DNA of 43,256 nt, taken from positions 1-43,256 of the IMG/VR virus record IMGVR_UViG_3300017763_000039; one strand, given 5' to 3'. The number at the start of each line of letters is the position of its first letter. The stretch's first letter is position 1. This document shows, piece by piece, positions 14,539 through 42,259 of this stretch. Below the pieces are notes generated by a model. That model was given only the letters and a program-made list of their open reading frames with translations. It had not been told where the DNA came from and searched no databases. The position numbers and the translations under genes were made by a program. This DNA comes from a virus.

Positions 14539-16362
14539 ATGGCGGAGAAATACACCACATCAGGTTCTGCCAGTAAACCTTTTTTGAAACCCAACGTGCT
14601 TCACCAGTACGCCTCGTTCAACACTATATTCACACTGAGTGGTATCACAGAGCAGGAGATCCGTACAGCCAAGTTTCTGACCAATCCTGTACACGACATA
14701 GTGGCACGTTCGGGAGGCATAGGTGATGCCAAGGTACAGACGAGACAGTTCAAGGAAAACAATAAAGAGGCGGAGGTATTCAGGACCTTGATCAAGGATT
14801 TCGAAAAGAAGAAATATTTCGAGCAATACCAAGACAGCATAGACATATTGGACAGGGCACATGACCTGTTCATAGAGAACGTCAACATGGTGTCAACGGT
14901 TGGACCCAACGCGGAACGTAACCTAGGAAACTTCACGAAGATGGAATTCGAGATACACGAACCATACGGTATCACTTTCATAGAGAAGGTCAGGGCCGCG
15001 ACTGCGATCAACGGTTTCCTGGACTACCAAGACGCACCCATGTTGCTGACCATAGAGTTTAAAGGGATCGACGACCAGGGAAGACCATACGCCCAACACA
15101 GCACCAACAAGAGCCACACACGTAAGATACCCATACTGATCAGCAGGGTGGACTTCGACGTGAACGAGGGTGGTGCCAGATATCAGGTCATGGCGGTGCC
15201 ATATACCGACCTTGCGTTCGACGACAGGTACAAGTATCCACGTACTTCAATGCCCATAGAGGGCAACTCACCTTATGAATGGGCCAAGGCCGCGGAACGT
15301 GCCATGTCCGAACAGATGGATAGGGAGTTCGAGGAACAGCGGAGGTACTACCCAGACATCTACAAGTTCGAGATAGACGACGAACTCAGGAAAATAGGAC
15401 TGCAATACAAGAATGAGGCGGGCACCACCAACAGTGCCGGATCGGTGTCGCAACAGTCAGAAGCGGATCAACTTGCGGCCGAAGTTGAAACTCTTGCACC
15501 ACCACCACCTAGGCAGAACACCATGTCTGCACAGGCCAGTTCGGGAATTGCGGTCACCAAGTTCTTCGAGGATGCTGTCAGAAACGGTTTCCATTACCAA
15601 GAGTTGGCCAACGATTTCTGGACTACCTATATCAGGTCCAACACCAATTACACTAAGGAAAGCCTTACCAAAGAGAAAGTGGATTCCATAATCAAGAGCA
15701 AGGAATTTGAGAAGATACTGTTCAACAACCAGTACATAGACTGGTTCAAGATCAAGACCACTGTGTACACGGACACAAGCAAGGTCGATCCCATAACCAA
15801 GATGCATCCAAAGACCATTACATACAAGGCTATACCTTACAAGATACACATTTTGAAGTTCGTTGGTCCTGGGGTCAGCATAGCCAACGTGGATTGGGGT
15901 AGAAAAGTACACAAGGAATATGACTACATGTACACTGGCGACAACGTTGACGTGCAGAGTCTAAGGATCAACTACAAGACCGCCTACTACCTACGGAATG
16001 TTAGGGGTGACGACAAGAATGACACAGAGAAGGGACTGTTCGCACCGCTTACGGAAGCGTTCAAGAACGTGTTCGGCAGGGAGCGTGATCCAGAACCGCT
16101 GTTGCCTCTGAGGCAATACCCGTCATCCATCAAGGGTGCCAACACCGTGCAGACACTGTCAGGGGAGGCCAACAAGGCCCAGCAGTTCTATGATTACCTT
16201 ACCAATCCTGAAGTGGATATGATGAGGATAGAACTGGAGATACTGGGAGATCCTACCTACATCTGTCAGGACATGTATGTTCCCATACAAGAAGGTGGCA
16301 AGGCATTTGGCAACAAGGATGAATCATTTGACTCAGCATCCGCCAGTTTCAACGCTGACTGA
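14539..16362 (+). CDS. Baseplate hub protein (gp27-like position), ends at in-frame TGA
   Basis: 607 residues to a TGA at 16360-16362. It holds the long structural segment E-I-H-E-P-Y-G-I-T-F-I-E-K-V-R (about 137-151), the Y-Q-V-M-A-V-P-Y-T-D region (about 215), a Pro/Gln-rich linker near 315-325 (APPPPRQNTM) and, near the end, M-M-R-I-E-L-E-I-L-G-D-P-T-Y-I-C-Q, typical of gp27-like or late-control-D-type hub proteins that bind the central spike. The spike gene gp5 follows. The same frame continues after TGA for 120 codons with protein-like sequence that completes the barrel, so the real protein is probably 727 residues. T4 gp27 is 391 residues; the extra length is an inserted region. Function inferred from position and motif; moderate. 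Confidence 0.65.
   Translation: MAEKYTTSGSASKPFLKPNVLHQYASFNTIFTLSGITEQEIRTAKFLTNPVHDIVARSGGIGDAKVQTRQFKENNKEAEVFRTLIKDFEKKKYFEQYQDSIDILDRAHDLFIENVNMVSTVGPNAERNLGNFTKMEFEIHEPYGITFIEKVRAATAINGFLDYQDAPMLLTIEFKGIDDQGRPYAQHSTNKSHTRKIPILISRVDFDVNEGGARYQVMAVPYTDLAFDDRYKYPRTSMPIEGNSPYEWAKAAERAMSEQMDREFEEQRRYYPDIYKFEIDDELRKIGLQYKNEAGTTNSAGSVSQQSEADQLAAEVETLAPPPPRQNTMSAQASSGIAVTKFFEDAVRNGFHYQELANDFWTTYIRSNTNYTKESLTKEKVDSIIKSKEFEKILFNNQYIDWFKIKTTVYTDTSKVDPITKMHPKTITYKAIPYKIHILKFVGPGVSIANVDWGRKVHKEYDYMYTGDNVDVQSLRINYKTAYYLRNVRGDDKNDTEKGLFAPLTEAFKNVFGRERDPEPLLPLRQYPSSIKGANTVQTLSGEANKAQQFYDYLTNPEVDMMRIELEILGDPTYICQDMYVPIQEGGKAFGNKDESFDSASASFNAD
16360..16362 (+). other. In-frame TGA splitting the hub gene
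   Basis: Codons read AAC GCT GAC TGA TTC CAA CCC ATA. The frame is the same on both sides (14539 and 16381 share phase), and the sequence after it continues a hub-protein domain. Possible readthrough or recoding site, a nonsense mutation, or a sequence error. Confidence 0.6.
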
Positions 16363-16722
16363 TTCCAACCCATAATCAGCGTGAGATATCGTCTGCCTGC
16401 AGACATAAATGAAAAAGAGGGAACAATGTTCTCCGGCATAGACAAAGTAAGGGACGAGAACCTGTTCTTCAATGGACTGTACCAGGTCAACAAGATAGAC
16501 ACCAAATTCGACAACGGGCAGTTCCTACAAACACTGCACTGTAGCAGGTTCAACAATCAACAGGGAGAGGGTGCAGTGCCGTTGTTGACAAACGCCTCGA
16601 TAAAAAGCATAACGGAGATTAAAAAAAGCGTGGACATCAAGAAAAAAATTACCAAGCCAGTAACAAAATTTGATGAGTACCTAGAGTCGATTGAAAAGAT
16701 CAATAGGGACTTCCCGGTATAA
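16363..16722 (+). CDS. C-terminal continuation of the hub protein after the TGA
   Basis: 120 codons in the same frame as the upstream hub gene, beginning F-Q-P-I-I-S-V-R-Y-R-L-P and ending at TAA (16720-16722). An independent start would have to be GTG at 16381, with no Shine-Dalgarno sequence and in the middle of a strand. The segment D-I-N-E-K-E-G-T-M-F then F-F-N-G-L-Y-Q-V-N-K-I-D-T-K-F-D-N-G-Q-F is the usual end of gp27/late-control-D-type barrels, where the closing strand reads G-x-Y-x-V-x-x-V-x-x-x-F-x-x-G-x-F. That makes this the missing end of the upstream protein rather than a separate gene. The last 40 residues are Lys-rich and helical. Confidence 0.7.
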   Translation, partial: FQPIISVRYRLPADINEKEGTMFSGIDKVRDENLFFNGLYQVNKIDTKFDNGQFLQTLHCSRFNNQQGEGAVPLLTNASIKSITEIKKSVDIKKKITKPVTKFDEYLESIEKINRDFPV

Positions 16723-21900: not shown

Positions 21901-22476
21901 ACAGCGGACCAGTTGAGGATCAATTACTCGGGCATACTTAACCCATTGAAATCATTGTCAGATCAGATCATATACCATCCTGTGAAATACAAGATACTTT
22001 TCGGTTCAAACGCAGACGAGCAATTACAAGCAACTTTCAAAGTTGTTAAAAATCCAAAGACCAACGTGTCAGACGCAGTGGTAAAGACCAGAGTGATTGC
22101 CGCAATAAACGAATTCTTCGCACTGGACAACTGGGATTTCGGAGACAGTTTTTACTTCACAGAATTAGCCGCTTACATACACAATCAACTAGCACCAGAC
22201 TTGTTGACAGCGGTCATTGTGCCCAACCAGTCAGGACAGGGTTTTGGGTCCTTGTTCCAACTTGACTCGGCGGCGGACGAGATTTTCATCAGTGGGGCCA
22301 CCGTTGATGATGTGTCAATCATAACAGCACTGGGAGCCAACCAACTGGCGGCCTCCGGCACTGTGGTCACATCGACATCAACTACCACGACCAACACCAC
22401 GACAGGATCAGCAGTGTCAGGCTCTACTACAACAGGTTCCGGTTCAAGCACCGGCAGTAGTGGGTCAGGATACTAA
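18994..22476 (+). CDS. gp6: Baseplate wedge protein gp6, enlarged
   Basis: 1160 residues; T4 gp6 is 660. The N-terminal D-W-R-K-I-Y-Q-A-F, then F-V-E-S-S-E-Y-V-A-L-I-D-L-I-A-Y and L-N-A-R-E-N-F-L-E-T-A, is the gp6/J-type wedge signature. Later, K-A-A-Q-V-Y-Y-S-Q-N-R-M-I-T-A-E-D-Y (about 418-435) is the second family landmark. The second half holds beta-rich inserts, and the last 45 residues are Ser/Thr/Gly-rich, ending G-S-S-G-S-G-Y. gp6 dimers form the inner ring that holds wedges together and controls baseplate switching. The stop overlaps the start of the giant gene (TAATG). A late promoter and an 18-base palindrome mark its start. Confidence 0.85.
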   Translation: MATTDRQNRLLVAEDWRKIYQAFQQADFKSYDFETLRRTMVAYLKENYPDDFNDFVESSEYVALIDLIAYISQALSFRVDLNARENFLETAERRNSVLRLARLINYNAKRNLPATGMLKIDSISTSQDVSDSTGTNLANSTIIWNDSANSNYREQFTAILNAANQSGQLFGNPRESGSIGGISTEVYTLSSNQLDLPIFKFQKSVGGISRSFEIVSSTITDSDSIYESSPVPGTGLTYTYRTDGSGDSSNNTGFFFLFKQGTLQQTDFTVDTSVTNYIKSLDASNINNSDVWLYKLDQFGQLSESWTKVPSLSGNNAIYNSLSKAERNTYNVVTKNNDAIDLVFGDGNFSNIPLGSFRTYYRTSDNSKYAIQSSDMQNVQLTVPYTDANGAQQSLTMSISLKASVYNSAATESNDSIKEKAAQVYYSQNRMITAEDYQVVPLSASQEIVKVRSVNRSASGISRAKEILDPTGAYSNVSVFADDGILYREESLQRFTFTFNNRSDIQSTIDTSVEAKLKEAYARQFYYLKYGTKDASTLSATWNSTTTSTNTNTGYFLSGRALVIGDSATSNMKFAKPGALVKFTSPDTRKFLNGTLVASTTDNAEDRVWAKIGEVVLDGANGGVGNLESGVGPVTLTDIIPQGSVINAIIPNFTTSFSATLEADLQDRIEAYEEFGLRYDVDSETWKVITSTNLSTSTSFDLAGAGSTAGTNADASWWFKFTNDGNTYTVQYRKLDYIFESDSQNKFHYDVEEKIYDYTTGKSVKDTVKILKTNSIVSSGNSVGYPITWQVVDVVTEADGFQDNRKVKVGFFDDDDDGVVDNPELFDIFVEPSLSESTKFVFFEKYTSYDNIERFRPYASTNFVVAQNEADINLNTTAYDDEQLFYFYDSAEDVIKSYSSTTNTLSTTTDYTARRGRGSINFQYKHHAGQETRIDPSVSNIVDVYLLERTYDNLFRIWLQDGGSKPNTATADQLRINYSGILNPLKSLSDQIIYHPVKYKILFGSNADEQLQATFKVVKNPKTNVSDAVVKTRVIAAINEFFALDNWDFGDSFYFTELAAYIHNQLAPDLLTAVIVPNQSGQGFGSLFQLDSAADEIFISGATVDDVSIITALGANQLAASGTVVTSTSTTTTNTTTGSAVSGSTTTGSGSSTGSSGSGY

Positions 22477-25400
22477 TGGCGGACAATCCCACAAACCCTT
22501 TAACCAATAACGAAGTTGTCAAACAGGGCACCAACGAGTACAGACGTACTGTACAGCACCTACCTGCTTTCTACAGGACGGACGCCAATCAACGTTTCCT
22601 GGCCAGCACGATGGATCCGTTGGTACAAAAAGGATCTTTAGAAAGACTTGATGGCTACATAGGCAGACAAGATGCCTACACCAGGGATGTCAGCGACAGG
22701 TACATCACTGCAACAAGCAGGGCCAGGTACGCATATCAGTTAGAACCCGCTGTCACCTACACGGACAGAGACACAACATCTGTGAATCCTGAAGACCAGG
22801 TCAAGTTCACTGGAACGTATGACGACTACATAAACCAGATCAAGTACCTGGGAGGTAATGTCAACAACCACGATAGACTTAACAAGGAAACTGTGTACAG
22901 TTGGAATCCTGCCATAGACTACGACAAGTTGGTCAACTACAGGGAGTACTACTGGATGCCGGATGGACCAGGCACCATAGAGATAGATTCTGTCGGACCA
23001 AGTGCGGTAGTAGAATATTCCGTAGAGAATTTGGCGCAAGGCGCTTATAACTTCACCCACAGGGAAAATGAAAACAATCCTATATTAACACTATACAGAG
23101 GTAACACCTACAAGTTCAACGTGAACGCCAAAGGACATCCGTTCTGGATAATGACGGAACCATACAAGAGCAAGGTATCTGCTGATGGCTCAACGTCAAC
23201 TATATTTGACACAGGCGTTACGAACAACGGAGTTGACTACGGAACAGTTACATTCACGGTTCCCACAACTGGTGCACCAAGCACTTTATATTACCAATGT
23301 GGTAACCATGATGCCATGTACGGCATCCTGCAGATAAAAGATGCCACGAGCACCACAGCAATAGATGTTGAAGATGATATCGTGGGTGCGAAAAATTACA
23401 GCCTACGTACTCTTGATCTATCAAACGGAATGAAGATCAAGTTCACGAAATCCTTGGTAGCGAGTGCGTACCAAGACAAGGAATACTACGTGGAAGGTGT
23501 TGGTGATGCAATAACACTCACAGATGTTGAGGATTTAATTACCCCAGGCTCATATGCGACAGAATCCACTATACTGTATGATCAGGTAGGATATGATTCA
23601 AGACCATACGCCAAAGCGTATTACACTCCTGAGAACAAAGATTACATAACGATCAAGAGGGATTCACAGGATCAGAACGCTTGGTCTAGATACAACAGAT
23701 GGTTCCATAGATCCATCATAGATGAAACAGCAAGGATCGGTGGTTTCACTCCCACGCTGAACGAGGACGACAGAGCAAAGAGACCTATTATAGAATTCGA
23801 TTCAGGATTGGCACTATACAACCATGGAACTGTGGCCAAAAAATCTGTCACGCTGTATGACACAGTAACAACTGACGCCTTCAGCACAGTGGTCAAACAG
23901 ACAGGTTACATCGTCGATGGAATAGCATTGGCGGATGGCATGAGGATAGTGTTTGCCGCGGACACAGACACACTGGTAAAAAATAAGATATATGATGTGA
24001 ACTTTGTGACAGCGGGAGACTCCACTCAAGTCATAAACTTGACAGAAGCGTCCGACGGCACCCCGGCAGACAATGATTCCATATTCATAGAGTTCGGAAC
24101 AACAAACCAAGGTAAGACTTTCCATTACGACAACACAACAGAAACTTTTATAGAATCACAAGAGAAGACAGGAGTGAACCAACAACCATTGTTCGCCATG
24201 TTCGACAACGACCACACACCGTTCGATGATGCCACAACGTATCCAAATTCAACTTTCGCAGGAGCGAAGGTTTTTGCTTTCGCAACATCAGACACAGCAA
24301 CCACAGATACTGTGCTAGGTATCAAAGTGAAATACAACACAATAAACAATGTCGGGGACATTGTGTTCGATTCGGACCACACGTCAGGAACATTTACCTA
24401 CAAGAGTGGAACACAAACGCTTACAAAAAATTTAGCCGAGGGACACTTGCACTACAGCACAGGCAGAAGCACACACAACTCGAGAAGTGCTTGGATAAAA
24501 AGAACGTCGGAAAGTAAGCAACGTGTCATACGTACATTCATAGTAGATGCCACAGAGAAACAGTTGTTCCCTATTGACTTCTACAAGGATTCAGCGGACC
24601 TAACAGATCTTGAAGTTTCTGTATCAGTTAACGGTACGAGAAAAACACTGACTACAGATTACACATTGGAGACCGGCACAAAAAACAAATACGTGAAATT
24701 CAACAAGGCACTAGAAGTTAATGATCAGGTCAGGATCGCTGGACACAGCAGTGTCGATAAAGTAGAAAATAAAGGAATATACGAGATACCAGAGAACCTG
24801 GCTACAAACAGTCTCAATGAACAGTTGGGCACATTCACGTTTGGACAAATTCTAAATCACGTAAAGGACATACTAGACAAGAATCAAGATGTGAATGGAG
24901 CGATACCAGGAGTGTCAAATCTTAGAGATAAACCAGATGCAAGATTAAAGGGTGGTAGCATACATCAGCACGAAGGATCTTTACTGCCTGCTATATTCAA
25001 TCTGTTAGATCAAGAGGCAAACTTTGTTACTTCATTAGATTACGCAGGTCATGAATACGAGAAATGGTACAACGCATTCCTTACTCACGCAACTGGCACA
25101 GCATACGAAGGTGTTGCGGCCGACAGAGTGGACGAAATCATCACAGCAATAACACCTGGCAGGAACAACAGTTTCCCGTTCTATTATGAGGACATGTTGG
25201 GTTGGGGAGAAAATGTATCAACTAGGTCATACTCGGTTATGGGATCATCGCAGACAGAATACGCACTTGATTCACAACATGACATCACTACATTGAACAA
25301 CAGGGCAGTGTACGTTTACCTCAATGACGTGCAATTATTACTGGGAACAGATTACACTTTCAGCACAACCAATGACAGCGTAGAGATCACAAAAGCACTG

Positions 25401-28400
25401 GCAGAAGGCGACAAGATTGTCATAAAGGATTACAGTGACACAACAGGAAGTTACATGCCACCATCTCCTACCAAATTGGGAATGTATCCTAGGTTCACTC
25501 CTGAGGTATTCACAGATACGACCTACATCACAGACACAGCAATGATCCGGAAGCACGACGGTTCCATAATAAAAGCATACGGTGATGAACGAGATGACCT
25601 AATAATTGAACTTGAAAAAAGGATCTACAACAATATAAAAGTCACGTACGACGCCGCATACATCGACATACATGATATCATGCCAAGTGCTTTTACGTCT
25701 ACAGAATACAAACTACAAGAAGTAGACAGTGTGATGGGGCCAGACTTCTATCAATGGGCAGGACGTAACAATGTTCAGTACATCAACAACACAGTTTTCT
25801 CAGAAGGATCACCATTCACTTACAACTATGCTAGGTCCAAAGGCAGGCTGATAGATGAGAATCTACCAGGACACTGGAGGGGCATCTACAAATATTTCTA
25901 CGACACTGACGCTCCGCATGTTAGACCATGGGAGATGTTAGGTCATTCGGAGAAACCAACGGATTGGGACGCAACATACGGAACTGCTCCGTACACCTCG
26001 GGCAACGATGTGTTATGGAACGCGGTTGCAACAGAACCAGGCAGATACGGCAAGCCTTTGATAAAAGACTACCTACCGGTAGATGCATCTGGAAACTTAT
26101 TAGATCCATTGGCGGCAGGACTAGTTGACAACTTTGACATACCAGGACGACAGAACGCTTGGAAGTTTGGTGATCAAGCACCAGCGGAGACGGCGTGGAG
26201 AAGATCCAGTGCTTATCCATTCACGGCCGTGAAGGCTTTGGCACTGACCAAACCCGCAAAATTCTTTTCAAACCTTTTCGATCCATCAAGATTGACAACC
26301 AATGTTGCTGGAAACCAGATTTACACAGAGACAGGAATAAGAAAAACATTAGCCACTGCCAGGTATCACTTAGAGACCGAAACAAATTTAGCAACGGGTG
26401 TAACAACAAAATACCAGACAGCGGGTTATCAACCGTATGTGGTCAATCACTTGATTTCAAAGAACTTGGATGCCAAGACCTTCTACTACGACAAGATGAA
26501 AAATCTAAGTGTTCAGTTGGCATACAAGTTGGGAGGGTTCACAGACAAGGACAACATTAAAATCTTAACAGACAGTGTGTCCCCGGGATCCAAATCAGGA
26601 TCAAAATTTATACCAGACGAAAACTACAAGATATTGTTCAGGACATCAAATCCTGTGGACAGTTTCCAATTCTCTGGTGTGCTGATAGAGAAGAACACGG
26701 ACATCAGTCAGGATGGTTCTACTGTACTAGGCGGATACAAGATATTAGGTTACAGCACAACTAAACCATATTTCAATTTCAACTATCCGGTCAAGACCAC
26801 AACGGCAACAGCGGTATCGACAGAAGGATCAACGGTAGTAGAACAGTATACCGCATACCAAGAAATTACGCAGACAATACCATATGGTCATGTATTCAAT
26901 ACCATACAGGACGTTACTGATTTCTTATTTGGATACGGACATTGGTTGGAATCACAAGGATTCCAATTCAACAAATTCTCAAATGAATTAAAAGAAACAC
27001 TGAATTGGGCGAACGCAGTCAGAGAATTCTTATTCTGGACCACGCAGGAATGGTCTCCAGGATCAGCGATAACCGTTTCACCGGCCGCTGACGGATTCGA
27101 ACTAAACACCAACAACAGCATTGTAGGGAAACTTAGGAACCTGGCAGGTGACTATTCACTTCTAGACTCAGGAGGCAGGAAGATAGACATCAGTGAGATA
27201 TCTACCAAACGAATAGGCAAGACTTTTGAACTGGGGATCAAGTCTGACACCATCGGACTTTACAACATAGCATTGAACACTGTTCAGAAGGAACACGTAT
27301 TGTTGTTTGACAACAGCACAGTGTTCGCGGACATAATATATGATCCATTCACAGGTTTCAGACAACAGAGATTGAAACTAGTTGGATGGAAGACAGCAGG
27401 ATGGAACGGTGACTACTACGCACCAGGTTTCGTATTCGATGCCGCACAGGTCACATACTGGATTGCCAACACAGACTACAGGATAGGCGACAGTGTAGAG
27501 TACCAAGGCAAGTTCTATGTGGCAAAATCTAATCACAACTCAGGATCAACCTTCGATAAAACCTATTGGACACTCAAGGATGAGAAACCAGCACCACAGT
27601 TGATACCAAACTTCGAGTACAAGATCGCACAGTTCAATGACTTCTATGAGATGGAGACCAACAACTTTGATGAATCGCAACAGCAGTTGGCACAGAGATT
27701 GACTGGGTACCAGAGCAGGGACTACCTGGAGAACCTATTCGTCAACGACGTTTCACAGTACAAGTTCTACCAAGGCTACATCAGGGAGAAGGGCACGCAG
27801 AACGCCATAGACAAGATCCTGAAGGCCAAGTACGAGGGCGAGGATATCTCACTCGACCTTTATCCGGAATGGATGATAAGGACAGGTAACTTCGGCAACA
27901 CAGATTCCATAGAGAACATACAGATCACACTGAAAGACGATGAGATCACGGCAGATCCACAGAGCATAGAGTTGTTGGACACGTCCAATGACACGGTGGA
28001 ATATACAAGATCAGATGCCATTGTCAAAGACAACTTCTACTACAAGCCAGTGGAGTACACAGCATCAGACACGTTCAAGAGATTGGACTACACCAAGCAA
28101 GGTGTCAGCAGGGACACAGCACAGGTGTTCAAGACAGCAGGATACCCGCAAGTTCAACAGGTGCAACACACAGCCTTCGACATAGAAGAGATCCTGGATT
28201 TAGACATGAACGCCATAACGGCCAATGACCTTGTATGGGTTGCCAACAAGAGCAACCTTGACTGGGACGTTTTAAGGATCACTAGTGCTGGCATAAAGAT
28301 AGCGAATCTACACTTAATAAACGATGCCTCACAGTTGGAGATCACTTTCACAGGTTCTCACAATCTGACAGCAGGTTCCACAACTACACAAGCGGACTAC

Positions 28401-31400
28401 TTTGGCATATCAAACAGTGAAGAAGCAACACTGAATGGCGTGTACCAGGTCAGTGCCACACCGGACCACAAAACGGTGATCATAGATTACGATGGCAACG
28501 TGGGATTCATTCCGGCACTGGAAGACGGCTCAACGGCAGACAGTTATGGAAACATCTACAAGTTCGTGTCTGTGAGATTGGCATCAATGGACAATGTAAA
28601 TGACTTGATAGATTTTGAAAATTACACAGACAAGGATGACGCCATAGAACAACCAGGAGACAAGGTGTTCGCAGATGCTGACAGCTCAGGACTGTGGCGT
28701 GTGTATGAGAAACAGGATCCATACACCACAGCGATAGTGTTATCGCCAGACGCCAGCACAGCAGAGCAGGAGTTCGGACACAGGATAGTGGCACGTAATG
28801 ACGGTAGGACAGTGATTGCGTCTGCTCCAGGCAAGGGCCAAGGTGAGGTACACTTCCTATTCAGGACCTCGTCTACAGCGGGTACTCTTTTACAATCACA
28901 GTCTGTAGGAACCATGACCGACAATGATGACAACACCAGTAGGTTAGGTGAATCACTGTCAATGAGTACAGACGAGAACTTCGTTGTTGCAGGAGCACCA
29001 TACACGAATGCAGTAGGTGCCGACGGTAGCACAAGATTTATTGACTCAGGACTGGTAAAAATTTACATATGGGATCCTAGCACGTTCAAGTATGGCATAC
29101 TAGACACAGTCAGAAGTCCTACTGATGGATCCACATTGAATGAGAATGCCAATTTTGGATGGGCACATAAAATTTCAGAACCAGGGACTAGTTCGGTAAG
29201 AACGACTCCTGACAAATACCTCTTCGTATCAGCACCGGGCCATGACAACGACAGGGGTCGGGTATACATGTACACATGGGGAGTGGGTGCAGACGGTTCC
29301 ACATATGACACATGGACACAGGACTACACAATAGAAGCACCAAACGGCGGTAGAGGCCAAAGATTTGGACACAGAATTCAAACGAATGACAACGGTGACA
29401 TACTTGCCGTTAGTTCCGTTGCACCAGGCAACGCTGGCAAGGTGGAGATATTCATCAAGACGTCACAGAGCAATGATGGTAGCACACAAAATTCATTCGC
29501 ACTGGCACAGACACTGACCGGGGTCACAAGCGATGGGTCATCTATAAACACAAAATTTGGCGAATCTATAGCAATGAGCAAAGATGGAACTACGCTGATT
29601 GTTGGAGCGCCTGGCGTTGATGGCACATCACATCCAGATGCAGGAGCGGTGTACTATTACAAATGGAATGCAGATGATTCCACAAACACCTACACCCTAC
29701 AACAGACCATAAGTGCTCCAGAATCAAGCACTAACATGAAGTTTGGCACAAGCATGGATATCAGCCATGATGGTACGAGAGTAATCATAGGTGCTGAAAA
29801 TTTTGCGAGCTCTAGAGAAATGAAATTTGACGCAGGGGAGACGACGTTTGACTTGCAGGACACTACCATAGTCGACAGCAACACGGGTTCGGGTGGGGCA
29901 TTCACGGCAACCATGTACAACACTAAATTTGTTTTGGATGACAGACTGATCACAGACAACGTCACAGTGAATGATGACTTTGGAAGAGGCGTCTGCGTAA
30001 TTGACGGTTCGGTCTACGTTGGAGCACCAAAAGACGATGGAAACACAACAACAGACGGAAGCACTAAAGTAGTGAATGACGGCACAGTGACCTGTTTCGA
30101 TCTTACAGTCAACGGAGAATATGCTTGGAAGAATCTAGTGACTGAGACTGCACTAATGGACACGGAAAAACTAGGAAAAGTTTTTGAATTCAATAAAAAA
30201 ACAAAACAATTACAGGATTACTATGACTTATACGATCCTATCAAAGGTAGGATACTAGGTATTGCAGACAGAGAGATTGATATCAAGACTGCGTGGGATC
30301 CAGCATCATACAACGTGGGACCAAAGGCCACTATCAAGACACCATGGGCGGAAGACCATAAAGGTGAGGTGTGGTGGGATCTTTCCACAGTAAAATGGTT
30401 GTGGTACGAACAGGACACGCAGGAATACAAACTCAACCACTGGGGACAGACATTCCCTGGTTCGAGCATAGACGTTTACGAATGGGTTGAATCAAGACTC
30501 CTACCAAGTGAATGGAACAACAGAGTCGAAGGCACAAGCTCAACGATATCAGGCATTGCACTGTATGGCGACGACTCAAATTACAGTGTGGTGCAGAAGT
30601 ACGATTCACGACTGGACAGTTTCGTGAACGTCTACTACTTCTGGGTAAAAGGCAAAACAACATTGCCTGACAACACACACAGGAAGAACACGGTGGCGTT
30701 CGTTGCCAACCTGATCACAAATCCTAGGGCATTTGATCACAAATACTATTCTATCACAGACACTAACAAATTCCTATTGAACAATATTTCTAATTTGACG
30801 AATGACGATGTAGTACTTAATGTGGATATAAGGACAAACACATTCGAGGGAGATTCACACAGCGTATGGAAGTTGGTCAGGGAAGGTGACGCCGACTACA
30901 GACCAGGAGTGCAAGTAGAGTCACGTTGGTGGGATTCGTTGATAGGTAAAAATACTGCGGGAGACATTGTACCAGATTTAAATCTTCCGTTAAACGAGAG
31001 ATACGGCAACAACGTCAGACCAAGACAGAGCTGGTATGTGGATAGGTATGACGCATTGAAAGAGATCATAGACTATGCAAACAGTGTATTAAAGAAAAAT
31101 CAACTAGTGGGACAGGTAAACCTAACAAACTTGGATTCCCAGGATCCAGAACCAACGTCACAGAGTCTAGAATGGGACGCTTCGGTGGACACATATGCAG
31201 AGTTGACATACATTAACACAGCAGACATATCAGGTACAGTGAAATATCTTGTGAAAGCGGATGAGACTGCCAACAACTACTGGGCAATATACACCTGGGA
31301 TGGCACGGAATGGTCGAGGACCAAGATACAAACGTACAACACTTCTGCATACTGGGGTTACACGGATTGGTACAAAGTTGACGGTGACATGATCCATGAT

Positions 31401-34400
31401 GAGAACACTAAAATTGACAAGCAGGTTACATACCAGTACGAACTTGACACGCTGGATATCGCGATAGGCAAGCACGTCAAAGTTACAAGTGCGGACACAG
31501 GTGGTTGGAAACTGTTCATGAAGACTGCAACAGGATGGGAAAACGTTGGAACAGAGAACGGTACAATTAGGTTAAGCACCAAACTTTACGACTACAGCCA
31601 AGACGCATCGGGTTTTGCAGGACAGGACAACTTCGATGACAATTTCTTTGATCAAGAGCCAAGCATTGAGACAAGGAAAATTTTGACTGCATTAAGGGAC
31701 GACATGTTCACGGACGAGTTAGCCGGAGAATACAACACATTGTTCTTTACAGGATTAAGAAAAGTTCTTTCTGAACAGACGTACGTAGACTGGATGTTCA
31801 AAACATCATTCATAAATGCTAAAAATTCTGTGAGGCAACTTGATCAGAGAAAAACATACACCACTGGCACGGACAGTTGGATAGAGAGCTACATCAATGA
31901 AGTCAAACCATTCCACACAAAATTAAGGGAATACAAACTAGGTTATGACAAAACAGAAACACAGGATGGCCTATTCTCGGACTTTGACAATCCCACTTTC
32001 TATGACGCGACAACAGGTAAGATCAGAAGTCTCAACGTTGATTCAGACACAGCGAAATTAACAGAGTTCCCATACCAGATGTGGTATGACTACCACAAAA
32101 AGTATGTGCAGTCTATCACTGTGACAGCAGGAGGTTCGGGATACGAGGTGGCTCCTACAGTAACCATACTGGGAGGAACGACAGGATCAACAGGACCGTT
32201 CCAGATACAGGCCACAAGTAGTTCAGGTGCGACTAGTGGACAGTTTGGATACTACTATCCGTTGTTCACGAGTGAGAAACAGGCCGAGATTTATGACGCA
32301 CAGAATTCAGGTTCAGGAACAACTAAACCTTACACATTTGATGGGTTGGATGGAACATTCTATGGCCCAACAGCGTCGGTTACAGAAGCACAATCCTCGA
32401 AATCAACTTTATACAAGATTTATGTCACGCCTACCACAACAGCGGCGACAGCCACTGCAATCATACAGGGTGGTGCAGTAACAAAAATTAATGTCACAGG
32501 GATAGGTGCGAATTACACAGCAACACCTACAGTTGTGTTGACAGGTGGTAAAAAAGATGGCACCACACCAACAGACACAGCCAAAGCATATGCGAACTTG
32601 AACAACGACCTTGTTAGAGATTTTGACACCACTATCAAGTTTGACAGGGTGTCAAGCACATCCAGGGTGGTGGACTGGGCGGCATCAACAGCCTACGCAT
32701 ACAACGACCTATTGAGATACAACAATGGACTTTACAAAGTTACAAACGCATTCACTTCAAGCACAGACTTCGACGACAACTCAGCAAGTGTATATAAGGT
32801 ATACGGTAACGAGACAGGATTGACAGCGGCTGACAGAACAAAAGGGTTCTACACACCAGGCTCAGGAATGCCGGGCAACGAACTAGACCAAGTGATGACT
32901 GGAGTTGACTACGGTGGGACGATGGTCACAGGATTGCTATTCAGCCAAGAGGCAGGATGGGACAAGGCGGGTTGGTATGACTTCCCATGGGACAACTACG
33001 GAAATTCAAGAGTCAAGGCGTTCAGGGCAGATGGTTCAACAGCGGCATACACATTTGACACAGCACCTACCAGCAGTGAAGTATATCAAGTGTACCTAAC
33101 ACAAGACGACAGTACACGTAAGAAACTTACAGACGTGTTCAGGGGCGACGGTTCAACAGTATCATTCACTATAAGTGAAACACCGGAAGCAAACGCACTT
33201 GTAGAGTTCATACCATTCGATGACGACGGCGTGCTTACACCAACAGATGACAGGACGTTAGATTCTTTAGTGAAAGGTGGCCTATTCACATCAGCACTGG
33301 GTCACGCACCTAGTGACATAGTTTTAGAGGGTGATGATTTCGTTTCTCCAGACACAAGTTACGCACCGGAAGAGGTTGTTCCTGGACAGTTGTTTGATAC
33401 CTTAGACATCAAGGTGTACACGTCACCGGAATCAGGTGTGCCATTCATAAGTGAGATGAACCACAGGGGGAATGGAAGCACAACAACATTCAGCATAGGC
33501 GACTATCCTGGATCTCTTGGGTCAGTCACAGTGTCTGTTGACGGTGTAGTACAGAAATTGACAACAAACTATACAGTCAACGTTGGTAACAAAACAATTA
33601 CATTTACATCAGCACCTGTAAACAACAGCATAATATCAACAAAAGTTTTTGCAATTTCAGGTGAGAACTACAGAGTGCTGAACACTTTTACAGGCGACGG
33701 AAGTACAACATCGTTCTTGACTTCTACAAGAGGAGAATTCAATTTAGATTCTACGTCATCGGACATCTACGTGACGGTGGACGGAGTTCCTACAACATCA
33801 TACACAACAACGACAACAGCAAATACAATCACTGTGGTATTCAATTCAGCACCAGCGGCAAGTTCTTACATACAGATAGCAGGTTTCAACAAGTCAACCA
33901 CAAGCACTAGAAGTTTTGCAAGTGTGAGGAATCAGGCAATTACGTATGACGGTGCAACAAACAGATACACCTTGACTTATCCACCGGGAGCGATAGGACC
34001 ATTCTCTGGTCTGACCACGGTCGAGTTGAACGGCAGAGTATTACGAGGACCGGACAACACCTACTACGTTGGAGACGGAAGCACATACACATATGGTGTT
34101 GTATCTGGATTAGAAGATGATTCAACAGTTGACCCGGCAAAAACAATTTCAAGTGCCAGCCAGGTACAAGTTTTTGTTAATGGAACCAAAAAAGATCTTA
34201 ATACGCACTACACTGTGGATGTTGGAAACAACAATATAGAATTTAACACAGCATCAGTTCCTACTTCAACAGATGTGATTTGTATTTCAACGTTAGTCGA
34301 TCATCAATACTACAATGAAGGAACGGATTTGATATTAGTGCCTAGTGCAATTACATCTCCTTACAGTCTGAGTGCAAGTGATGTATTATCAGTCACAACA

Positions 34401-35312
34401 TTCAATAACGCACTTGGAATGAAACAGCGAAGGGAAGTTTTAGAAGGCAGATCAGGCGGTGTGTTCAAATTGAGATTTGACATATTACACGCAGGTTACA
34501 CTTACGTTTGGTTGAATGGTGAGCAGTTGATACAAGGTGCGGACTACACAGCAAGTGGTAACACAATAACAATCAATGGCAAAACAATAACTTCTTCAGA
34601 CAGACTAGATGTGATGTACTTCGCAATTGAAACGGCAACAGGTGCTACGGGATTCAGGATATTTAAAGACATGATGAACAGAACGTTCTACAAACGTATT
34701 TCAAAAAATGCGACTACAAAATTGACACTAGATATGACAGAAGGAACGCAGACCATAACTGTGGAAGACGCGAGTGTGTTGCCAACACCAAACGCATCTG
34801 CTAACGTTCCAGGGGTCATATTCATAGACAAAGAGAGAATAGAATACTTTACGAAATCAGGTAACACGTTGGGACAATTAAGACGTGGAACACTTGGTAC
34901 AGGAATTAAGGGGCATGGATCAGGCACGGAAGTGGTAGATGCGTCTGGTACTCAAACCATCCCTTATGCGGACACAGTGTACACCAACACCTTCACAGGT
35001 GACGGCAGTACAGTTGTGTATGCACTATCACAAGCACCATCATCCGCTAGTGAGTTAGACATATTCATTGGTGGCCAACGATTGTTGCTCACTAGCGAGG
35101 ATGGATCAACTATCAACTACTCTGTTTCTGGAGCAAACGTGACTCTAAGCACAGCACCTGCTTCTGCAACACAGATAAAAATATTACACAAGAAAGGACA
35201 GGTTTGGTACACAGCAAAAGATGGTAATCCAGCGGACGGTAAAGGATTACAGGCTTCTGGCACTCAACAGGCTAAATTCATTGCTAATGAGCCTACAAAC
35301 GCACCTGAATAA
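22476..35312 (+). CDS. Giant multidomain tail/baseplate structural protein (4278 residues)
   Basis: One open frame of 12.8 kb. N-terminus about 1-165: conserved-looking (LPAFYRTDANQRF; Y-S-W-N-P-A-I-D-Y-D-K-L-V-N-Y-R-E-Y-Y-W). Residues about 178-288: cupredoxin-like domain with H221, C275, H278, M281. About 1659-1705 and 3398-3440: CBM5/12-like segments (Y-x-x-G-D-x-V-x-Y-x-G-x-F-Y-V-A-K). About 2094-2540: seven FG-GAP-type repeats. About 3212 and 3338: G-S-G-Y / G-A-N-Y repeats with P-T-V. About 3515-4250: at least six modules beginning F-x-G-D-G-S-T and ending in a x-x-x-A-P turn. It sits where T4 has gp7/gp8, but I see no gp7 similarity. Likely roles are a long peripheral baseplate arm or fibre that contacts the host. 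Very similar large proteins are known in marine T4-like phages. No frameshift seen. Confidence 0.7.
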   Translation: MADNPTNPLTNNEVVKQGTNEYRRTVQHLPAFYRTDANQRFLASTMDPLVQKGSLERLDGYIGRQDAYTRDVSDRYITATSRARYAYQLEPAVTYTDRDTTSVNPEDQVKFTGTYDDYINQIKYLGGNVNNHDRLNKETVYSWNPAIDYDKLVNYREYYWMPDGPGTIEIDSVGPSAVVEYSVENLAQGAYNFTHRENENNPILTLYRGNTYKFNVNAKGHPFWIMTEPYKSKVSADGSTSTIFDTGVTNNGVDYGTVTFTVPTTGAPSTLYYQCGNHDAMYGILQIKDATSTTAIDVEDDIVGAKNYSLRTLDLSNGMKIKFTKSLVASAYQDKEYYVEGVGDAITLTDVEDLITPGSYATESTILYDQVGYDSRPYAKAYYTPENKDYITIKRDSQDQNAWSRYNRWFHRSIIDETARIGGFTPTLNEDDRAKRPIIEFDSGLALYNHGTVAKKSVTLYDTVTTDAFSTVVKQTGYIVDGIALADGMRIVFAADTDTLVKNKIYDVNFVTAGDSTQVINLTEASDGTPADNDSIFIEFGTTNQGKTFHYDNTTETFIESQEKTGVNQQPLFAMFDNDHTPFDDATTYPNSTFAGAKVFAFATSDTATTDTVLGIKVKYNTINNVGDIVFDSDHTSGTFTYKSGTQTLTKNLAEGHLHYSTGRSTHNSRSAWIKRTSESKQRVIRTFIVDATEKQLFPIDFYKDSADLTDLEVSVSVNGTRKTLTTDYTLETGTKNKYVKFNKALEVNDQVRIAGHSSVDKVENKGIYEIPENLATNSLNEQLGTFTFGQILNHVKDILDKNQDVNGAIPGVSNLRDKPDARLKGGSIHQHEGSLLPAIFNLLDQEANFVTSLDYAGHEYEKWYNAFLTHATGTAYEGVAADRVDEIITAITPGRNNSFPFYYEDMLGWGENVSTRSYSVMGSSQTEYALDSQHDITTLNNRAVYVYLNDVQLLLGTDYTFSTTNDSVEITKALAEGDKIVIKDYSDTTGSYMPPSPTKLGMYPRFTPEVFTDTTYITDTAMIRKHDGSIIKAYGDERDDLIIELEKRIYNNIKVTYDAAYIDIHDIMPSAFTSTEYKLQEVDSVMGPDFYQWAGRNNVQYINNTVFSEGSPFTYNYARSKGRLIDENLPGHWRGIYKYFYDTDAPHVRPWEMLGHSEKPTDWDATYGTAPYTSGNDVLWNAVATEPGRYGKPLIKDYLPVDASGNLLDPLAAGLVDNFDIPGRQNAWKFGDQAPAETAWRRSSAYPFTAVKALALTKPAKFFSNLFDPSRLTTNVAGNQIYTETGIRKTLATARYHLETETNLATGVTTKYQTAGYQPYVVNHLISKNLDAKTFYYDKMKNLSVQLAYKLGGFTDKDNIKILTDSVSPGSKSGSKFIPDENYKILFRTSNPVDSFQFSGVLIEKNTDISQDGSTVLGGYKILGYSTTKPYFNFNYPVKTTTATAVSTEGSTVVEQYTAYQEITQTIPYGHVFNTIQDVTDFLFGYGHWLESQGFQFNKFSNELKETLNWANAVREFLFWTTQEWSPGSAITVSPAADGFELNTNNSIVGKLRNLAGDYSLLDSGGRKIDISEISTKRIGKTFELGIKSDTIGLYNIALNTVQKEHVLLFDNSTVFADIIYDPFTGFRQQRLKLVGWKTAGWNGDYYAPGFVFDAAQVTYWIANTDYRIGDSVEYQGKFYVAKSNHNSGSTFDKTYWTLKDEKPAPQLIPNFEYKIAQFNDFYEMETNNFDESQQQLAQRLTGYQSRDYLENLFVNDVSQYKFYQGYIREKGTQNAIDKILKAKYEGEDISLDLYPEWMIRTGNFGNTDSIENIQITLKDDEITADPQSIELLDTSNDTVEYTRSDAIVKDNFYYKPVEYTASDTFKRLDYTKQGVSRDTAQVFKTAGYPQVQQVQHTAFDIEEILDLDMNAITANDLVWVANKSNLDWDVLRITSAGIKIANLHLINDASQLEITFTGSHNLTAGSTTTQADYFGISNSEEATLNGVYQVSATPDHKTVIIDYDGNVGFIPALEDGSTADSYGNIYKFVSVRLASMDNVNDLIDFENYTDKDDAIEQPGDKVFADADSSGLWRVYEKQDPYTTAIVLSPDASTAEQEFGHRIVARNDGRTVIASAPGKGQGEVHFLFRTSSTAGTLLQSQSVGTMTDNDDNTSRLGESLSMSTDENFVVAGAPYTNAVGADGSTRFIDSGLVKIYIWDPSTFKYGILDTVRSPTDGSTLNENANFGWAHKISEPGTSSVRTTPDKYLFVSAPGHDNDRGRVYMYTWGVGADGSTYDTWTQDYTIEAPNGGRGQRFGHRIQTNDNGDILAVSSVAPGNAGKVEIFIKTSQSNDGSTQNSFALAQTLTGVTSDGSSINTKFGESIAMSKDGTTLIVGAPGVDGTSHPDAGAVYYYKWNADDSTNTYTLQQTISAPESSTNMKFGTSMDISHDGTRVIIGAENFASSREMKFDAGETTFDLQDTTIVDSNTGSGGAFTATMYNTKFVLDDRLITDNVTVNDDFGRGVCVIDGSVYVGAPKDDGNTTTDGSTKVVNDGTVTCFDLTVNGEYAWKNLVTETALMDTEKLGKVFEFNKKTKQLQDYYDLYDPIKGRILGIADREIDIKTAWDPASYNVGPKATIKTPWAEDHKGEVWWDLSTVKWLWYEQDTQEYKLNHWGQTFPGSSIDVYEWVESRLLPSEWNNRVEGTSSTISGIALYGDDSNYSVVQKYDSRLDSFVNVYYFWVKGKTTLPDNTHRKNTVAFVANLITNPRAFDHKYYSITDTNKFLLNNISNLTNDDVVLNVDIRTNTFEGDSHSVWKLVREGDADYRPGVQVESRWWDSLIGKNTAGDIVPDLNLPLNERYGNNVRPRQSWYVDRYDALKEIIDYANSVLKKNQLVGQVNLTNLDSQDPEPTSQSLEWDASVDTYAELTYINTADISGTVKYLVKADETANNYWAIYTWDGTEWSRTKIQTYNTSAYWGYTDWYKVDGDMIHDENTKIDKQVTYQYELDTLDIAIGKHVKVTSADTGGWKLFMKTATGWENVGTENGTIRLSTKLYDYSQDASGFAGQDNFDDNFFDQEPSIETRKILTALRDDMFTDELAGEYNTLFFTGLRKVLSEQTYVDWMFKTSFINAKNSVRQLDQRKTYTTGTDSWIESYINEVKPFHTKLREYKLGYDKTETQDGLFSDFDNPTFYDATTGKIRSLNVDSDTAKLTEFPYQMWYDYHKKYVQSITVTAGGSGYEVAPTVTILGGTTGSTGPFQIQATSSSGATSGQFGYYYPLFTSEKQAEIYDAQNSGSGTTKPYTFDGLDGTFYGPTASVTEAQSSKSTLYKIYVTPTTTAATATAIIQGGAVTKINVTGIGANYTATPTVVLTGGKKDGTTPTDTAKAYANLNNDLVRDFDTTIKFDRVSSTSRVVDWAASTAYAYNDLLRYNNGLYKVTNAFTSSTDFDDNSASVYKVYGNETGLTAADRTKGFYTPGSGMPGNELDQVMTGVDYGGTMVTGLLFSQEAGWDKAGWYDFPWDNYGNSRVKAFRADGSTAAYTFDTAPTSSEVYQVYLTQDDSTRKKLTDVFRGDGSTVSFTISETPEANALVEFIPFDDDGVLTPTDDRTLDSLVKGGLFTSALGHAPSDIVLEGDDFVSPDTSYAPEEVVPGQLFDTLDIKVYTSPESGVPFISEMNHRGNGSTTTFSIGDYPGSLGSVTVSVDGVVQKLTTNYTVNVGNKTITFTSAPVNNSIISTKVFAISGENYRVLNTFTGDGSTTSFLTSTRGEFNLDSTSSDIYVTVDGVPTTSYTTTTTANTITVVFNSAPAASSYIQIAGFNKSTTSTRSFASVRNQAITYDGATNRYTLTYPPGAIGPFSGLTTVELNGRVLRGPDNTYYVGDGSTYTYGVVSGLEDDSTVDPAKTISSASQVQVFVNGTKKDLNTHYTVDVGNNNIEFNTASVPTSTDVICISTLVDHQYYNEGTDLILVPSAITSPYSLSASDVLSVTTFNNALGMKQRREVLEGRSGGVFKLRFDILHAGYTYVWLNGEQLIQGADYTASGNTITINGKTITSSDRLDVMYFAIETATGATGFRIFKDMMNRTFYKRISKNATTKLTLDMTEGTQTITVEDASVLPTPNASANVPGVIFIDKERIEYFTKSGNTLGQLRRGTLGTGIKGHGSGTEVVDASGTQTIPYADTVYTNTFTGDGSTVVYALSQAPSSASELDIFIGGQRLLLTSEDGSTINYSVSGANVTLSTAPASATQIKILHKKGQVWYTAKDGNPADGKGLQASGTQQAKFIANEPTNAPE

Positions 35313-38958: not shown

Positions 38959-40380
38959 ATGGCGTCGGATGCCTTTACTTTCAATTATACAGGTACAATT
39001 AACCAAGTTGTAATTCCACCAGGAACAGAATCTATAGACGTTCATCTCTGGGGAGGAGCAGGTGGCGGTGGAGGTTCAGACGCTGGAGGCCCTGGTGGCA
39101 CAGGAGCGGCAGGACACTACGTCACATCGTCAACGATATCTATAACATCAGCACAGATAAACACCACTATGGAAATAGTAGTGGGTGGTGGTGGAGCAGG
39201 TGGGTCGTCAGGTGGCGGAGCACCAGGTGGTACCAACGGAAAAAGTAAAACAGGTTATTCAGGTGGAGAAGGCGGTAACGCTGGACCACAACCATATTCG
39301 GGCTCAGGTGGAGGTGGCGGAGGAGCCACTCTAGTGAGGATCGATGGCACAGACATAGCAGTCGCAGGAGGCGGCGGTGGAGGAGCAGGAGCGGGCAAGA
39401 GCTCAAACGGAACAGCAGGGATCAACACAAACACAGCAACATCAAACACACCAGGCACACTGGGAGAGAACGGCAAGGACCACAGCGGAGACGGAGGTGG
39501 TGGTGGAGCCGGTGGAGGTGGTGTCGATGGCGGAACGTCAGGCGATGGCGGATCGGGCGACAACGGCGGTACTGGCGGTAAGTCAGGATCAAACAACGCG
39601 GGCGGTGGCACAGAGAACAACGGATCTGGAGTAACACCAGGTGGCACGGGATCAGCACAATACACGGCAGGTATCGCAGTAGGTGGAAATCCAAGTTCTT
39701 CAGGTGCAGACGGCAAAGCAGTAGTCGTCTTCAACTCAAATGCACGGGGAAATGTAAAAGTTGGTGCTACGTGGAAAGGTATCTCTGAGGCATACTATAA
39801 AGTCAGCGGTGCTTGGAAAAGAATAACAGCAGGTTATTACAAAGTGGCTGGTGAATGGAAGGCTATATTCGCCCTATCAACATTCACACAGACAGCGGCC
39901 GGATTCGGTGACGCACAAGGGAGTTCAAGTTCAGGATCAGGTGGATCAGGCGGTGGTTGTTTCATAGCAGGCACTATGATCACAATGGCAGATGGCAGTT
40001 TCAAAGCAGTTGAAACTGTGGACATAGGTGACGAGGTTGCAGTAGGTGGCAAAGTGTTTGCAACAGGTAAGTTCTTGATTGATAACTTATATGAATACAA
40101 AGGTGTGCAGGTATCAGGCACGCACATGGTCAAAGAAGATGGTAAATGGACTCGTGTTGAGAACAGCAAACACGGTGTATCACTAGGTGATGATGACGCA
40201 ATAGTTTACGTGTTTGGAAACGAGAACAGAAGAATCATAATAGAAGGAATAGAGTTCACTGACTACTTCGAATTGAGTGAACAGCAAGAATTAGCCAACC
40301 ACGGCGAACAATTTTTTAGTAATTGGCAGGATCATGATAGACAGATTCATGATAAAAATGTTAATATACTAAATGCTTGA
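38959..40380 (+). CDS. Glycine-rich adhesin with C-terminal Hint (hedgehog/intein) domain
   Basis: 473 residues. The first 40 residues (F-T-F-N-Y-T-G-T-I-N-Q-V-V-I-P-P-G-T) lead into poly-Gly segments to about 260, resembling glycine-rich fibre-tip adhesins with polyglycine-II packing. Residues about 268-303 hold three Y-Y-K-V-x-G-x-W-K-x-I-like repeats. After a Ser/Gly linker comes the Hint domain: G-G-C334-F-I-A-G-T (splicing block A, nucleophile Cys), A-V-E-T-V-D-I-G-D-E, then V-S-G-T388-H389-M-V (block B-like), and F-T-D-Y-F-E-L at about 435. There is no C-terminal H-N splice motif, so cleavage rather than splicing is expected. The stop is TGA directly followed by TAA and overlaps the start of the next gene by 8 bases. 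Confidence 0.75.
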   Translation: MASDAFTFNYTGTINQVVIPPGTESIDVHLWGGAGGGGGSDAGGPGGTGAAGHYVTSSTISITSAQINTTMEIVVGGGGAGGSSGGGAPGGTNGKSKTGYSGGEGGNAGPQPYSGSGGGGGGATLVRIDGTDIAVAGGGGGGAGAGKSSNGTAGINTNTATSNTPGTLGENGKDHSGDGGGGGAGGGGVDGGTSGDGGSGDNGGTGGKSGSNNAGGGTENNGSGVTPGGTGSAQYTAGIAVGGNPSSSGADGKAVVVFNSNARGNVKVGATWKGISEAYYKVSGAWKRITAGYYKVAGEWKAIFALSTFTQTAAGFGDAQGSSSSGSGGSGGGCFIAGTMITMADGSFKAVETVDIGDEVAVGGKVFATGKFLIDNLYEYKGVQVSGTHMVKEDGKWTRVENSKHGVSLGDDDAIVYVFGNENRRIIIEGIEFTDYFELSEQQELANHGEQFFSNWQDHDRQIHDKNVNILNA

Positions 40381-41038
40381 TAAATCTTTTTACCACGGAC
40401 AGCAAGGCGAATGTTTTAGGCAGTTGGAAAAACACTGGGCGGACATCAAACACGAGTTTGACACACAACCTAACAAAGTATTTTTAGATCCTGAAGACTT
40501 CTCAGACAGTGTGAGGGGACTACCAGAAGACTTCGATGACAAGTCAGGAGACTATGTGCATGGGCAGTGGCAGGCATTGGGCATACAATCAGGGGATCAT
40601 GAAGGGCAGTCTTTTAATGACTATCCCATGCTATACAGTATTCTTAGAAAATTTCCCTATAAAACTAACGTCGCAATAATGACAGTAGGACCAAACACAA
40701 AAATTGGTAATCACACAGACAACGAGGGAGGATGGAGATATCAGATGTGCCTGGATGACGGTGGCGGAGATCAAAGCGGTATGTATGTGATGAATCTAGA
40801 GACCGGTAACCAGGAACCAATGATCTGGAAGACAGGTCAAGCATTTGTGTTCCAACCAGACATACAACTACACAACGGTTTCAACAATAACCCAGGCTCT
40901 AGGACCACGTTGTTAATTGACTTTTACAAGGAATCCGTGTACACTAAAGACAAGTTTGAAAAATATTACCAACACTATTCTGAGTGTTTCGAGGGGTTGG
41001 AAAATTTAGTGGACATATATGAATCTAGGAAAAAATAA
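40373..41038 (+). CDS. Aspartyl/asparaginyl beta-hydroxylase-like 2OG-Fe(II) oxygenase
   Basis: 221 residues, start MLDKSFYHGQQGECFRQLEK, stop TAA. Metal and cosubstrate residues are clear: G-N-H114-T-D116-N (H-x-D), a distal H167 in Q-P-D-I-Q-L-H-N-G-F and R177 in G-S-R-T-T-L-L-I-D-F, the pattern of the aspartyl/asparaginyl hydroxylase family (PF05118). It may hydroxylate a side chain in a virion or host protein, or a small molecule. It overlaps the Hint adhesin gene by 8 bases and the SDR gene by 20, so it belongs to a translationally coupled chain. The adhesin next door is an attractive but unproven substrate. Confidence 0.8.
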   Translation: MLDKSFYHGQQGECFRQLEKHWADIKHEFDTQPNKVFLDPEDFSDSVRGLPEDFDDKSGDYVHGQWQALGIQSGDHEGQSFNDYPMLYSILRKFPYKTNVAIMTVGPNTKIGNHTDNEGGWRYQMCLDDGGGDQSGMYVMNLETGNQEPMIWKTGQAFVFQPDIQLHNGFNNNPGSRTTLLIDFYKESVYTKDKFEKYYQHYSECFEGLENLVDIYESRKK

Positions 41039-41603
41039 AATAGCAGTTATAGGACACACCCGAGGTATAGGCAAGGCCATTTGTGATCTATACAAGAAAA
41101 AGAAATACCAAGTAGTTGGCATGAGTAAAAGTAATGGTTTCGACATCATACACGATCAAGAAAAAATATTAGAAAATATCGAAGACTGTAGTCTCGTGGT
41201 GTTAAATGCACACGCAGACAGAGGACAATTGAAACTTTTGAAAAATATCTACGGTAGACATGCATTTGATAGAATGAAAGTGGTGGTGATAACCAGCACG
41301 TCAGGGTTGGAGGAAGAACCAGACTATGGCCAATTCAAGGTGTGGGACAAGTTCAAGTACGTACAGTACTGTGAGATCAAGAAAGAATTGATAGAGTACA
41401 TCACTGAACTACAGGAAGAATTAATTTCAAAACCTTTGTCAGTTTATGATGTGTGTCCTGATGTGGTAGACACAGACATGACCAAAGGTCTGTGGGAAAA
41501 TTTGCCAAAATTGACAGCACAAGAAGTGGCAGAAGCAGTGAGATTCTGTTTTGAATCTACATTCAATATAAACAAGATGGTTATACAGAAAAATGCAAAG
41601 TAG
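41019..41603 (+). CDS. Short-chain dehydrogenase/reductase (SDR) family protein
   Basis: 194 residues, stop TAG. The Rossmann motif is I-A-V-I-G12-H-T-R-G16-I-G18-K-A, the N-A-H-A segment (63-66) stands where SDRs have N-A-G, the Ser region is V-I-T-S-T-S-G (90-96), and the catalytic pair is Y117-C-E-I-K121. Further on, D-V-C-P-D-V-V-D-T-D-M-T equals the P-G-x-V-x-T-x-M-T loop. At 194 residues it is shorter than the usual 250. It should oxidise or reduce a hydroxyl/keto group with NAD(P). The gene is AT-rich compared with the baseplate genes, and it overlaps both neighbours (20 and 11 bases). Confidence 0.75.
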   Translation: MNLGKNKIAVIGHTRGIGKAICDLYKKKKYQVVGMSKSNGFDIIHDQEKILENIEDCSLVVLNAHADRGQLKLLKNIYGRHAFDRMKVVVITSTSGLEEEPDYGQFKVWDKFKYVQYCEIKKELIEYITELQEELISKPLSVYDVCPDVVDTDMTKGLWENLPKLTAQEVAEAVRFCFESTFNINKMVIQKNAK

Positions 41604-42057
41604 GCCCTGGGACAGAGATACAGATTACATCACCCTGACCAAGTGGTGGACGGATTGAGAGTTTGGCGTGGTGCCCAAGGAATGCCTGCCACCAGATGGA
41701 GTCATGGTCGAAGTAGACGGCGAGCCTGTGTGTGCGGGAGGTTTGTACATAGGTGTAGGCACACAGTTTGCTTTCATGGAATGGATAGTCACAGATAAGA
41801 ATGCCGATCAAAGGACAACTCATAAGTGCCTCAAGGAATGCATAGACAGTATAATTCAATTGGCAAAAAGCAAAGGGATGAAGCTCGTATATACAGCAAC
41901 TAAAGAACAGGCACTGCACAAAAGATACACCAAATACCACAATATGGTGCTAACGGAGAGCAACGTGAAGACATTCCTAAGGGATCTCGATGGCTCATAT
42001 TCCAAGGATTTAACTTGGATATCCGACGATGAGCATATCGATAACCGTAATAAATAA
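41593..42057 (+). CDS. GNAT-type N-acetyltransferase-like protein interrupted by an in-frame TGA
   Basis: The expected start is ATG at 41593, which overlaps the SDR stop by 11 bases. Codons 1-21 read MQSRPWDRDTDYITLTKWWT plus D, codon 22 is TGA (41656-41658), then E-F-G-V-V-P-K-E-C-L-P-P-D-G-V-M-V-E continues. D-Y-x-x-L-x-x-W-W ... V-P-x-x-x-L-P-P-x-G is the N-terminal pattern of a GNAT group common in marine phages, and F-M-E-W-I-V-T-D follows as the acetyl-CoA strand. Full length would be 154 residues. A GTG at 41668 could start a shortened 129-residue product, but that lacks the first strand and helix. Substrate unknown. Stop TAA. Confidence 0.65.
41656..41658 (+). other. In-frame TGA in the GNAT gene
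   Basis: Codons read TGG ACG GAT TGA GAG TTT GGC. The family pattern W-W-x-x-[WH]-x-[WF] places an aromatic residue (often Trp or His) exactly at the TGA, as expected if it were read as Trp or arose from TGG. Confidence 0.55.
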
Positions 42058-42076: not shown

Positions 42077-42259
42077 ATGGCAACAAAACAAGAAGTCGCA
42101 GACTACATCAACGCAAACTACGAGTCAACGTGGACGTCAGAAGAAGAAGCAAAGATTGACGCTATGTTAACTCCAGAGTTAGCAACTATATTGATCAAAT
42201 TAGTTGGAGATGTAAGTTTCTTGACAGAGGTCAGAGACAACGCATCAAACAACGACTAG
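42077..42259 (+). CDS. Small acidic protein, unknown
   Basis: 60 residues, start MATKQEVADYINANYESTWT, stop TAG, with a good AAGGAG ten bases before the ATG. It is acidic and helical (S-E-E-E-A-K-I-D-A-M-L-T-P-E-L-A-T-I-L-I-K-L-V-G), with no cysteine and no membrane segment. It sits four bases before fibre paralogue 3 and after the GNAT gene. It might be a small fibre chaperone, but no motif shows this. Confidence 0.7.
   Translation: MATKQEVADYINANYESTWTSEEEAKIDAMLTPELATILIKLVGDVSFLTEVRDNASNND

Follow-up and report, generated by a model that had tools for sequence, protein, structure and literature searches.

In-frame TGA codons in a GNAT-fold gene and a virion structural gene of a T4-like phage sequence: probable private nonsense substitutions rather than recoding

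The in-frame TGA at codon 22 of a GNAT-fold gene in the phage DNA described here is very probably a private nonsense substitution carried by one sequence, not a recoded codon. The window (the whole stretch of DNA analysed) is a virus record of 43,256 bases, probably a phage genome fragment, from a marine phage that is tailed and has baseplate and late-sigma genes of T4-like type, and its baseplate wedge protein is less than 60% identical to those of isolate phages. A second in-frame TGA interrupts a virion structural protein gene; because the two codons replace unlike residues (W/H at the first, Q/R/S/K at the second) and both are absent from relatives, private substitutions are favoured. The features concerned are:

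14539-16722, + strand: virion structural protein gene of 727 codons, interrupted by TGA at codon 608 (phrog_11190, 1e-15)
16360-16362, + strand: second in-frame TGA, aligned to Arg or Gln in four relative genes
40373-41038, + strand: aspartyl/asparaginyl beta-hydroxylase-like gene, intact (PF05118, 1e-10)
41019-41603, + strand: SDR-like (short-chain dehydrogenase) gene, intact (PF00106, 6e-8)
41593-41655, + strand: codons 1-21 of the GNAT-fold gene, a 21-residue peptide as written, homologous in 32 relatives
41656-41658, + strand: in-frame TGA, codon 22 (TGG in 29/32 relatives, CAT in 3/32)
41659-42057, + strand: remainder of the GNAT-fold gene, conserved, open until the TAA at 42055-42057
41668-41670, + strand: GTG in frame downstream of the TGA, an unsupported candidate start, not conserved as GTG

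The GNAT-fold gene and its product

Both the overlap of the ATG at 41593 with the stop of the SDR-like gene and the TGA at codon 22, as given in a preliminary description of this DNA, are borne out by the coordinates; the frame thereafter is open, and the gene read through has 154 codons. That description had also matched codons 1-21 to the family N-terminus and placed the TGA at a conserved aromatic position, and comparison with relatives agrees on each point: the window has MQSRPWDRDTDYITLTKWWTD where the closest relative has MQDRPWNRDKDYDTLVRWWTQ, residues D11, Y12, L15, W18, and W19 are invariant across 28 aligned proteins, and codon 22 is a sense codon at all 32 related viral loci (which include duplicates, and represent 27 distinct proteins), encoding Trp in 29 and His in three (L027, L030, and L031). 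Since the frame is open at codon 22 in these 32 loci, and the start and first 21 codons are common to the close relatives, the TGA is internal to a genuine gene. The alignment with homologues that the preliminary description proposed leads the same way: identity to the read-through protein is 27-88% across the 27 relatives aligned, so the match is not chance. After the TGA, dN to the nearest relative (L002) is 0.05, against a saturated dS of 1.3, and the codons of this part appear strongly conserved over the long term. We considered decay of codons 1-21, but dN to 15 relatives is 0.13-0.28, against a median of 0.17 among the relatives themselves (dS being saturated), and thus no clear decay was seen.

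An AlphaFold2 model made with the TGA read as Trp predicts a GNAT fold (pLDDT 88.8, pTM 0.84), mixed alpha/beta with beta1-alpha1 at the N-terminus and a long helix after beta4; strand 1 spans residues 2-5 and helix 1 residues 8-21, the TGA following immediately. The top matches in a fold search of solved structures are N-acetyltransferases (Z 15.2-15.5 and rmsd 1.8-2.3 for the five best), with RimI, Ard1, and aminoglycoside 6'-acetyltransferase reaching Z ~15.5 over residues 1-136, and the protein also matches PHROGs family phrog_17252, of unknown function (4e-18). A Pfam search brought no acetyltransferase model to its cut-off, and a sequence search of solved structures returned nothing useful. 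GNAT enzymes usually bind the acetyl-CoA pyrophosphate through a loop motif, R/Q-x-x-G-x-G/A. The window protein differs from the RimI/Ard1 type here, since by eye the alignment between strand 4 and the long helix has TDKxAxxRxxHK, without the Gly pair, in place of that motif. The earlier name of GNAT gene therefore holds for the fold, as seen in the model and the fold search, but with the loop glycines missing we write “GNAT fold” and not “proven acetyltransferase”.

A scan of genome contigs found one relative, on contig L171 (2207-2668) in a MAG labelled Verrucomicrobia (TMED56); its GNAT-fold protein is 77% identical and has Trp at the codon-22 position. L171 is possibly a phage contig within a Verrucomicrobia-labelled bin.

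Upstream of the GNAT-fold gene lie the beta-hydroxylase-like and SDR-like genes, the latter intact in 14 of the 15 related records searched (the fifteenth had no match), and tail-fibre-like genes flank the group on both sides; this neighbourhood would fit a cargo or protein-modifying cassette. One flanking gene (38959-40380) encodes a glycine-rich tail-fibre-like protein with a weak C-terminal match to Hint (intein-like) domains (PF05203, E 5e-4, below the curated cut-off). Farther upstream, a single ORF of 4,278 codons (22476-35312) follows the baseplate wedge gene and has matches in related records.

The second TGA, relatives, and error load

The preliminary description mentioned a second in-frame TGA but gave no coordinates, and we take it to be 16360-16362 from comparison with relatives: when the genes of seven related records were set against the window, this was the one further in-frame stop accepted in a homologous gene. 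This stop too is real, but the relatives have no aromatic residue there. Across 32 relatives, counted by eye, the position is Gln in 16, Ser in eight, Arg in six, and Lys in two, with CGA in 6/32, all among the nearest. A wider automatic alignment of 92 relatives shows neither Trp nor a stop in this column, which is ragged there, so the residue counts are those of the 32-relative comparison. With this TGA standing for Arg/Gln-type codons, the two TGAs lend each other no support as Trp codons.

Other candidates were rejected. A TAA at 7399-7401 falls in non-coding DNA, because the third-position variation that marks coding sequence begins only near 7595; the remaining stop flags were judged to be N-terminal extensions or wrong-strand ORFs; and an apparent frameshift at 469-688 is due to a short ORF lying antisense to the gene at 3-734. 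A comparison rich in such shadow hits did not enter the counts. In the homologous genes compared, no frameshift was seen.

The segment 7055-7965 looks like a mobile homing-endonuclease cassette. About 500 non-coding bases within it are 90-92% identical to four related records, the DNA around them being mostly 81-88% identical in one of these comparisons (G002), and they sit immediately 5' of a SegE-like GIY-YIG endonuclease ORF (7558-7965; PF19835, 1e-36). This non-coding stretch has no match in Rfam, and its predicted fold is barely better than that of shuffled sequences.

Two nonsense codons in 13,031 codons make the window an outlier, as no in-frame stop was found in 509,744 aligned codons from 135 relatives (the stop marks in two alignments stem from these running beyond natural gene ends, and none of the alignments was split around a stop). 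Were stops evenly spread, the chance of both falling in the window would be ~6e-4, a figure to be read with the non-independence of the relatives and the choice of the window for its oddity in mind. The chance that both would be TGA is 0.042 by C-to-T/G-to-A routes and 0.058 by all single-base routes.

The window is otherwise unexceptional. Of 4,102 columns that are invariant elsewhere, 21 carry a change private to it (0.51%), a rate mid-range among seven long related records (0.37-1.02%), and for this reason we rejected the notion of an error-rich contig; the changes are mostly conservative, and C-to-T/G-to-A changes make up 2/17 of the single-base ones. Given that 4.57% of substitutions are nonsense, two nonsense hits would be expected to accompany ~44 random substitutions in the coding sequence, ~10 of which would hit the 4,102 invariant columns. 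Set against the changes observed, this expectation is uncomfortable for random error, though compatible with some errors in a contig that is not plainly error-rich. Searches for a near-identical strain, in which the two codons could be compared, found none. An exact 35-base pattern had no match in viral contigs, and a looser 26-base pattern retrieved four stretches, from the records behind L013, L029, L023, and L024, which are already among the 32 loci and all have Trp; phage records and plasmids likewise gave no DNA match.

Other readings of the in-frame TGAs

The alternative that survives best, though improbable, is that the host partly suppresses UGA through a near-cognate or suppressor tRNA, so that the phage tolerates a few UGAs and full-length proteins are made. 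Both stops are TGA, neither TAA nor TAG, apart from the TGA each gene is intact and conserved, and the contig is otherwise clean; moreover, apart from the two in-frame codons, the single gene among the 21 compared that ends in TGA has TAA directly after it. Yet such codons occur in no relative, and TGA terminators are scarce among relatives too (6/107 orthologous ends), so their low use is nothing special to this phage. The sole window gene ending in TGA has an orthologue that also does so in five of seven related records, and orthologous genes of the relatives mostly share their terminator codon with the window genes (the terminator counts leave out the mis-framed row 42078-42259). A tRNA search, positive in 14/14 control genomes, found none in the 43 kb window fragment or in 16 related records of up to 138,715 bases, and so no suppressor tRNA was seen. 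PMC11210395 reports a UGA-reading tRNA for only 11/73 predicted code-4 phages. We likewise give small credence to the corresponding picture of a host leaky for UGA and a marine T4-like phage early in the course of codon capture, with sense-read UGA in two or more genes, including a structural gene.

Very improbable is a true start at GTG 41668, with re-initiation after the TGA yielding a working protein of 129 residues. This GTG is in frame, three codons after the TGA, and by eye a weak purine stretch (GAGAG) precedes it; but the relatives have ACG, AAG, GTT, and other codons at the position, and the resulting protein would lose beta 1 and helix 1 of the predicted fold. The preliminary description had asked whether homologues start at the downstream GTG; none does, and all relatives carry the N-terminal part with its five invariant residues.

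The proposal that the TGA is read as Trp, also made in the preliminary description, is not supported. A phage using code 4 would place the codon-22 TGA well enough, at a Trp column kept in 29/32 relatives. However, at the 116 conserved Trp columns of the window (Trp in 90% or more of the relatives, five or more being present), TGG stands at 115 and TGA at one. In the 23 window genes compared, TGG occurs 150 times and TGA twice; the second TGA falls outside Trp positions, no relative shares either TGA, and relatives terminate genes with TGA. Some phages read TGA as Trp (code 4) or TAG as Gln (code 15), as in PMC11210395; compared with such phages, the window is alike in having one TGA at a conserved Trp, and differs in that TGA is not used genome-wide, no suppressor tRNA was seen, its second TGA lies off Trp, and its relatives use TGA as a terminator. 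The TGG, terminator, and tRNA results argue strongly against an established code in which TGA means Trp, a reading that we regard as close to refuted, and leave a weak case for suppression. Nor do relatives have Cys or Sec at either TGA, as for a selenoprotein.

Programmed UGA readthrough is the means by which phage Qbeta makes its coat extension. A structural gene cut 120 residues from its end resembles such an extension, but we hold it extremely improbable that each protein is made in two forms here by readthrough, as the signal should be conserved and the stops are found in 0/32 and 0/32 relatives, and a short GNAT form of 21 residues makes little sense.

Origin and significance of the two codons

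We therefore return to private nonsense substitution as the favoured account. C-to-T and G-to-A transitions are the commonest kind of point mutation, and each TGA is one such transition from a near-relative codon, TGG at codon 22 and CGA at 16360; on this ground, the earlier suggestion that a second TGA makes chance error less likely carries little weight. With the starting codons taken from relatives, the TGA at 41656-41658 would have arisen by transition from a conserved Trp codon in the GNAT-fold phage gene, and that at 16360-16362 by a separate transition from an Arg-type codon in the virion structural gene. Both TGAs would then terminate translation here: as written, the GNAT-fold gene would yield a peptide of 21 residues in place of a folded GNAT protein, and the product of the structural gene would be short of its last 120 residues.

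The two substitutions may be genuine alleles, carried by a defective or minor genome, or they may be errors of the consensus. Because a phage carrying both stops would probably be crippled, the balance tips slightly away from two fixed alleles and towards a consensus error, or a rare variant taken up in the contig, at one or both sites. The window resembles viral contigs with nonsense alleles or consensus errors in that a single-base stop, private to one sequence, interrupts an otherwise intact gene; it departs from them in having two such stops, each a TGA, in a contig of clean appearance elsewhere.

If UGA were sense-read in a free-living marine phage-host pair, this would be a natural case of early stop-codon capture. 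The two genes together also offer a caution, in that an in-frame stop at a conserved Trp mimics recoding until a second stop is compared across relatives.
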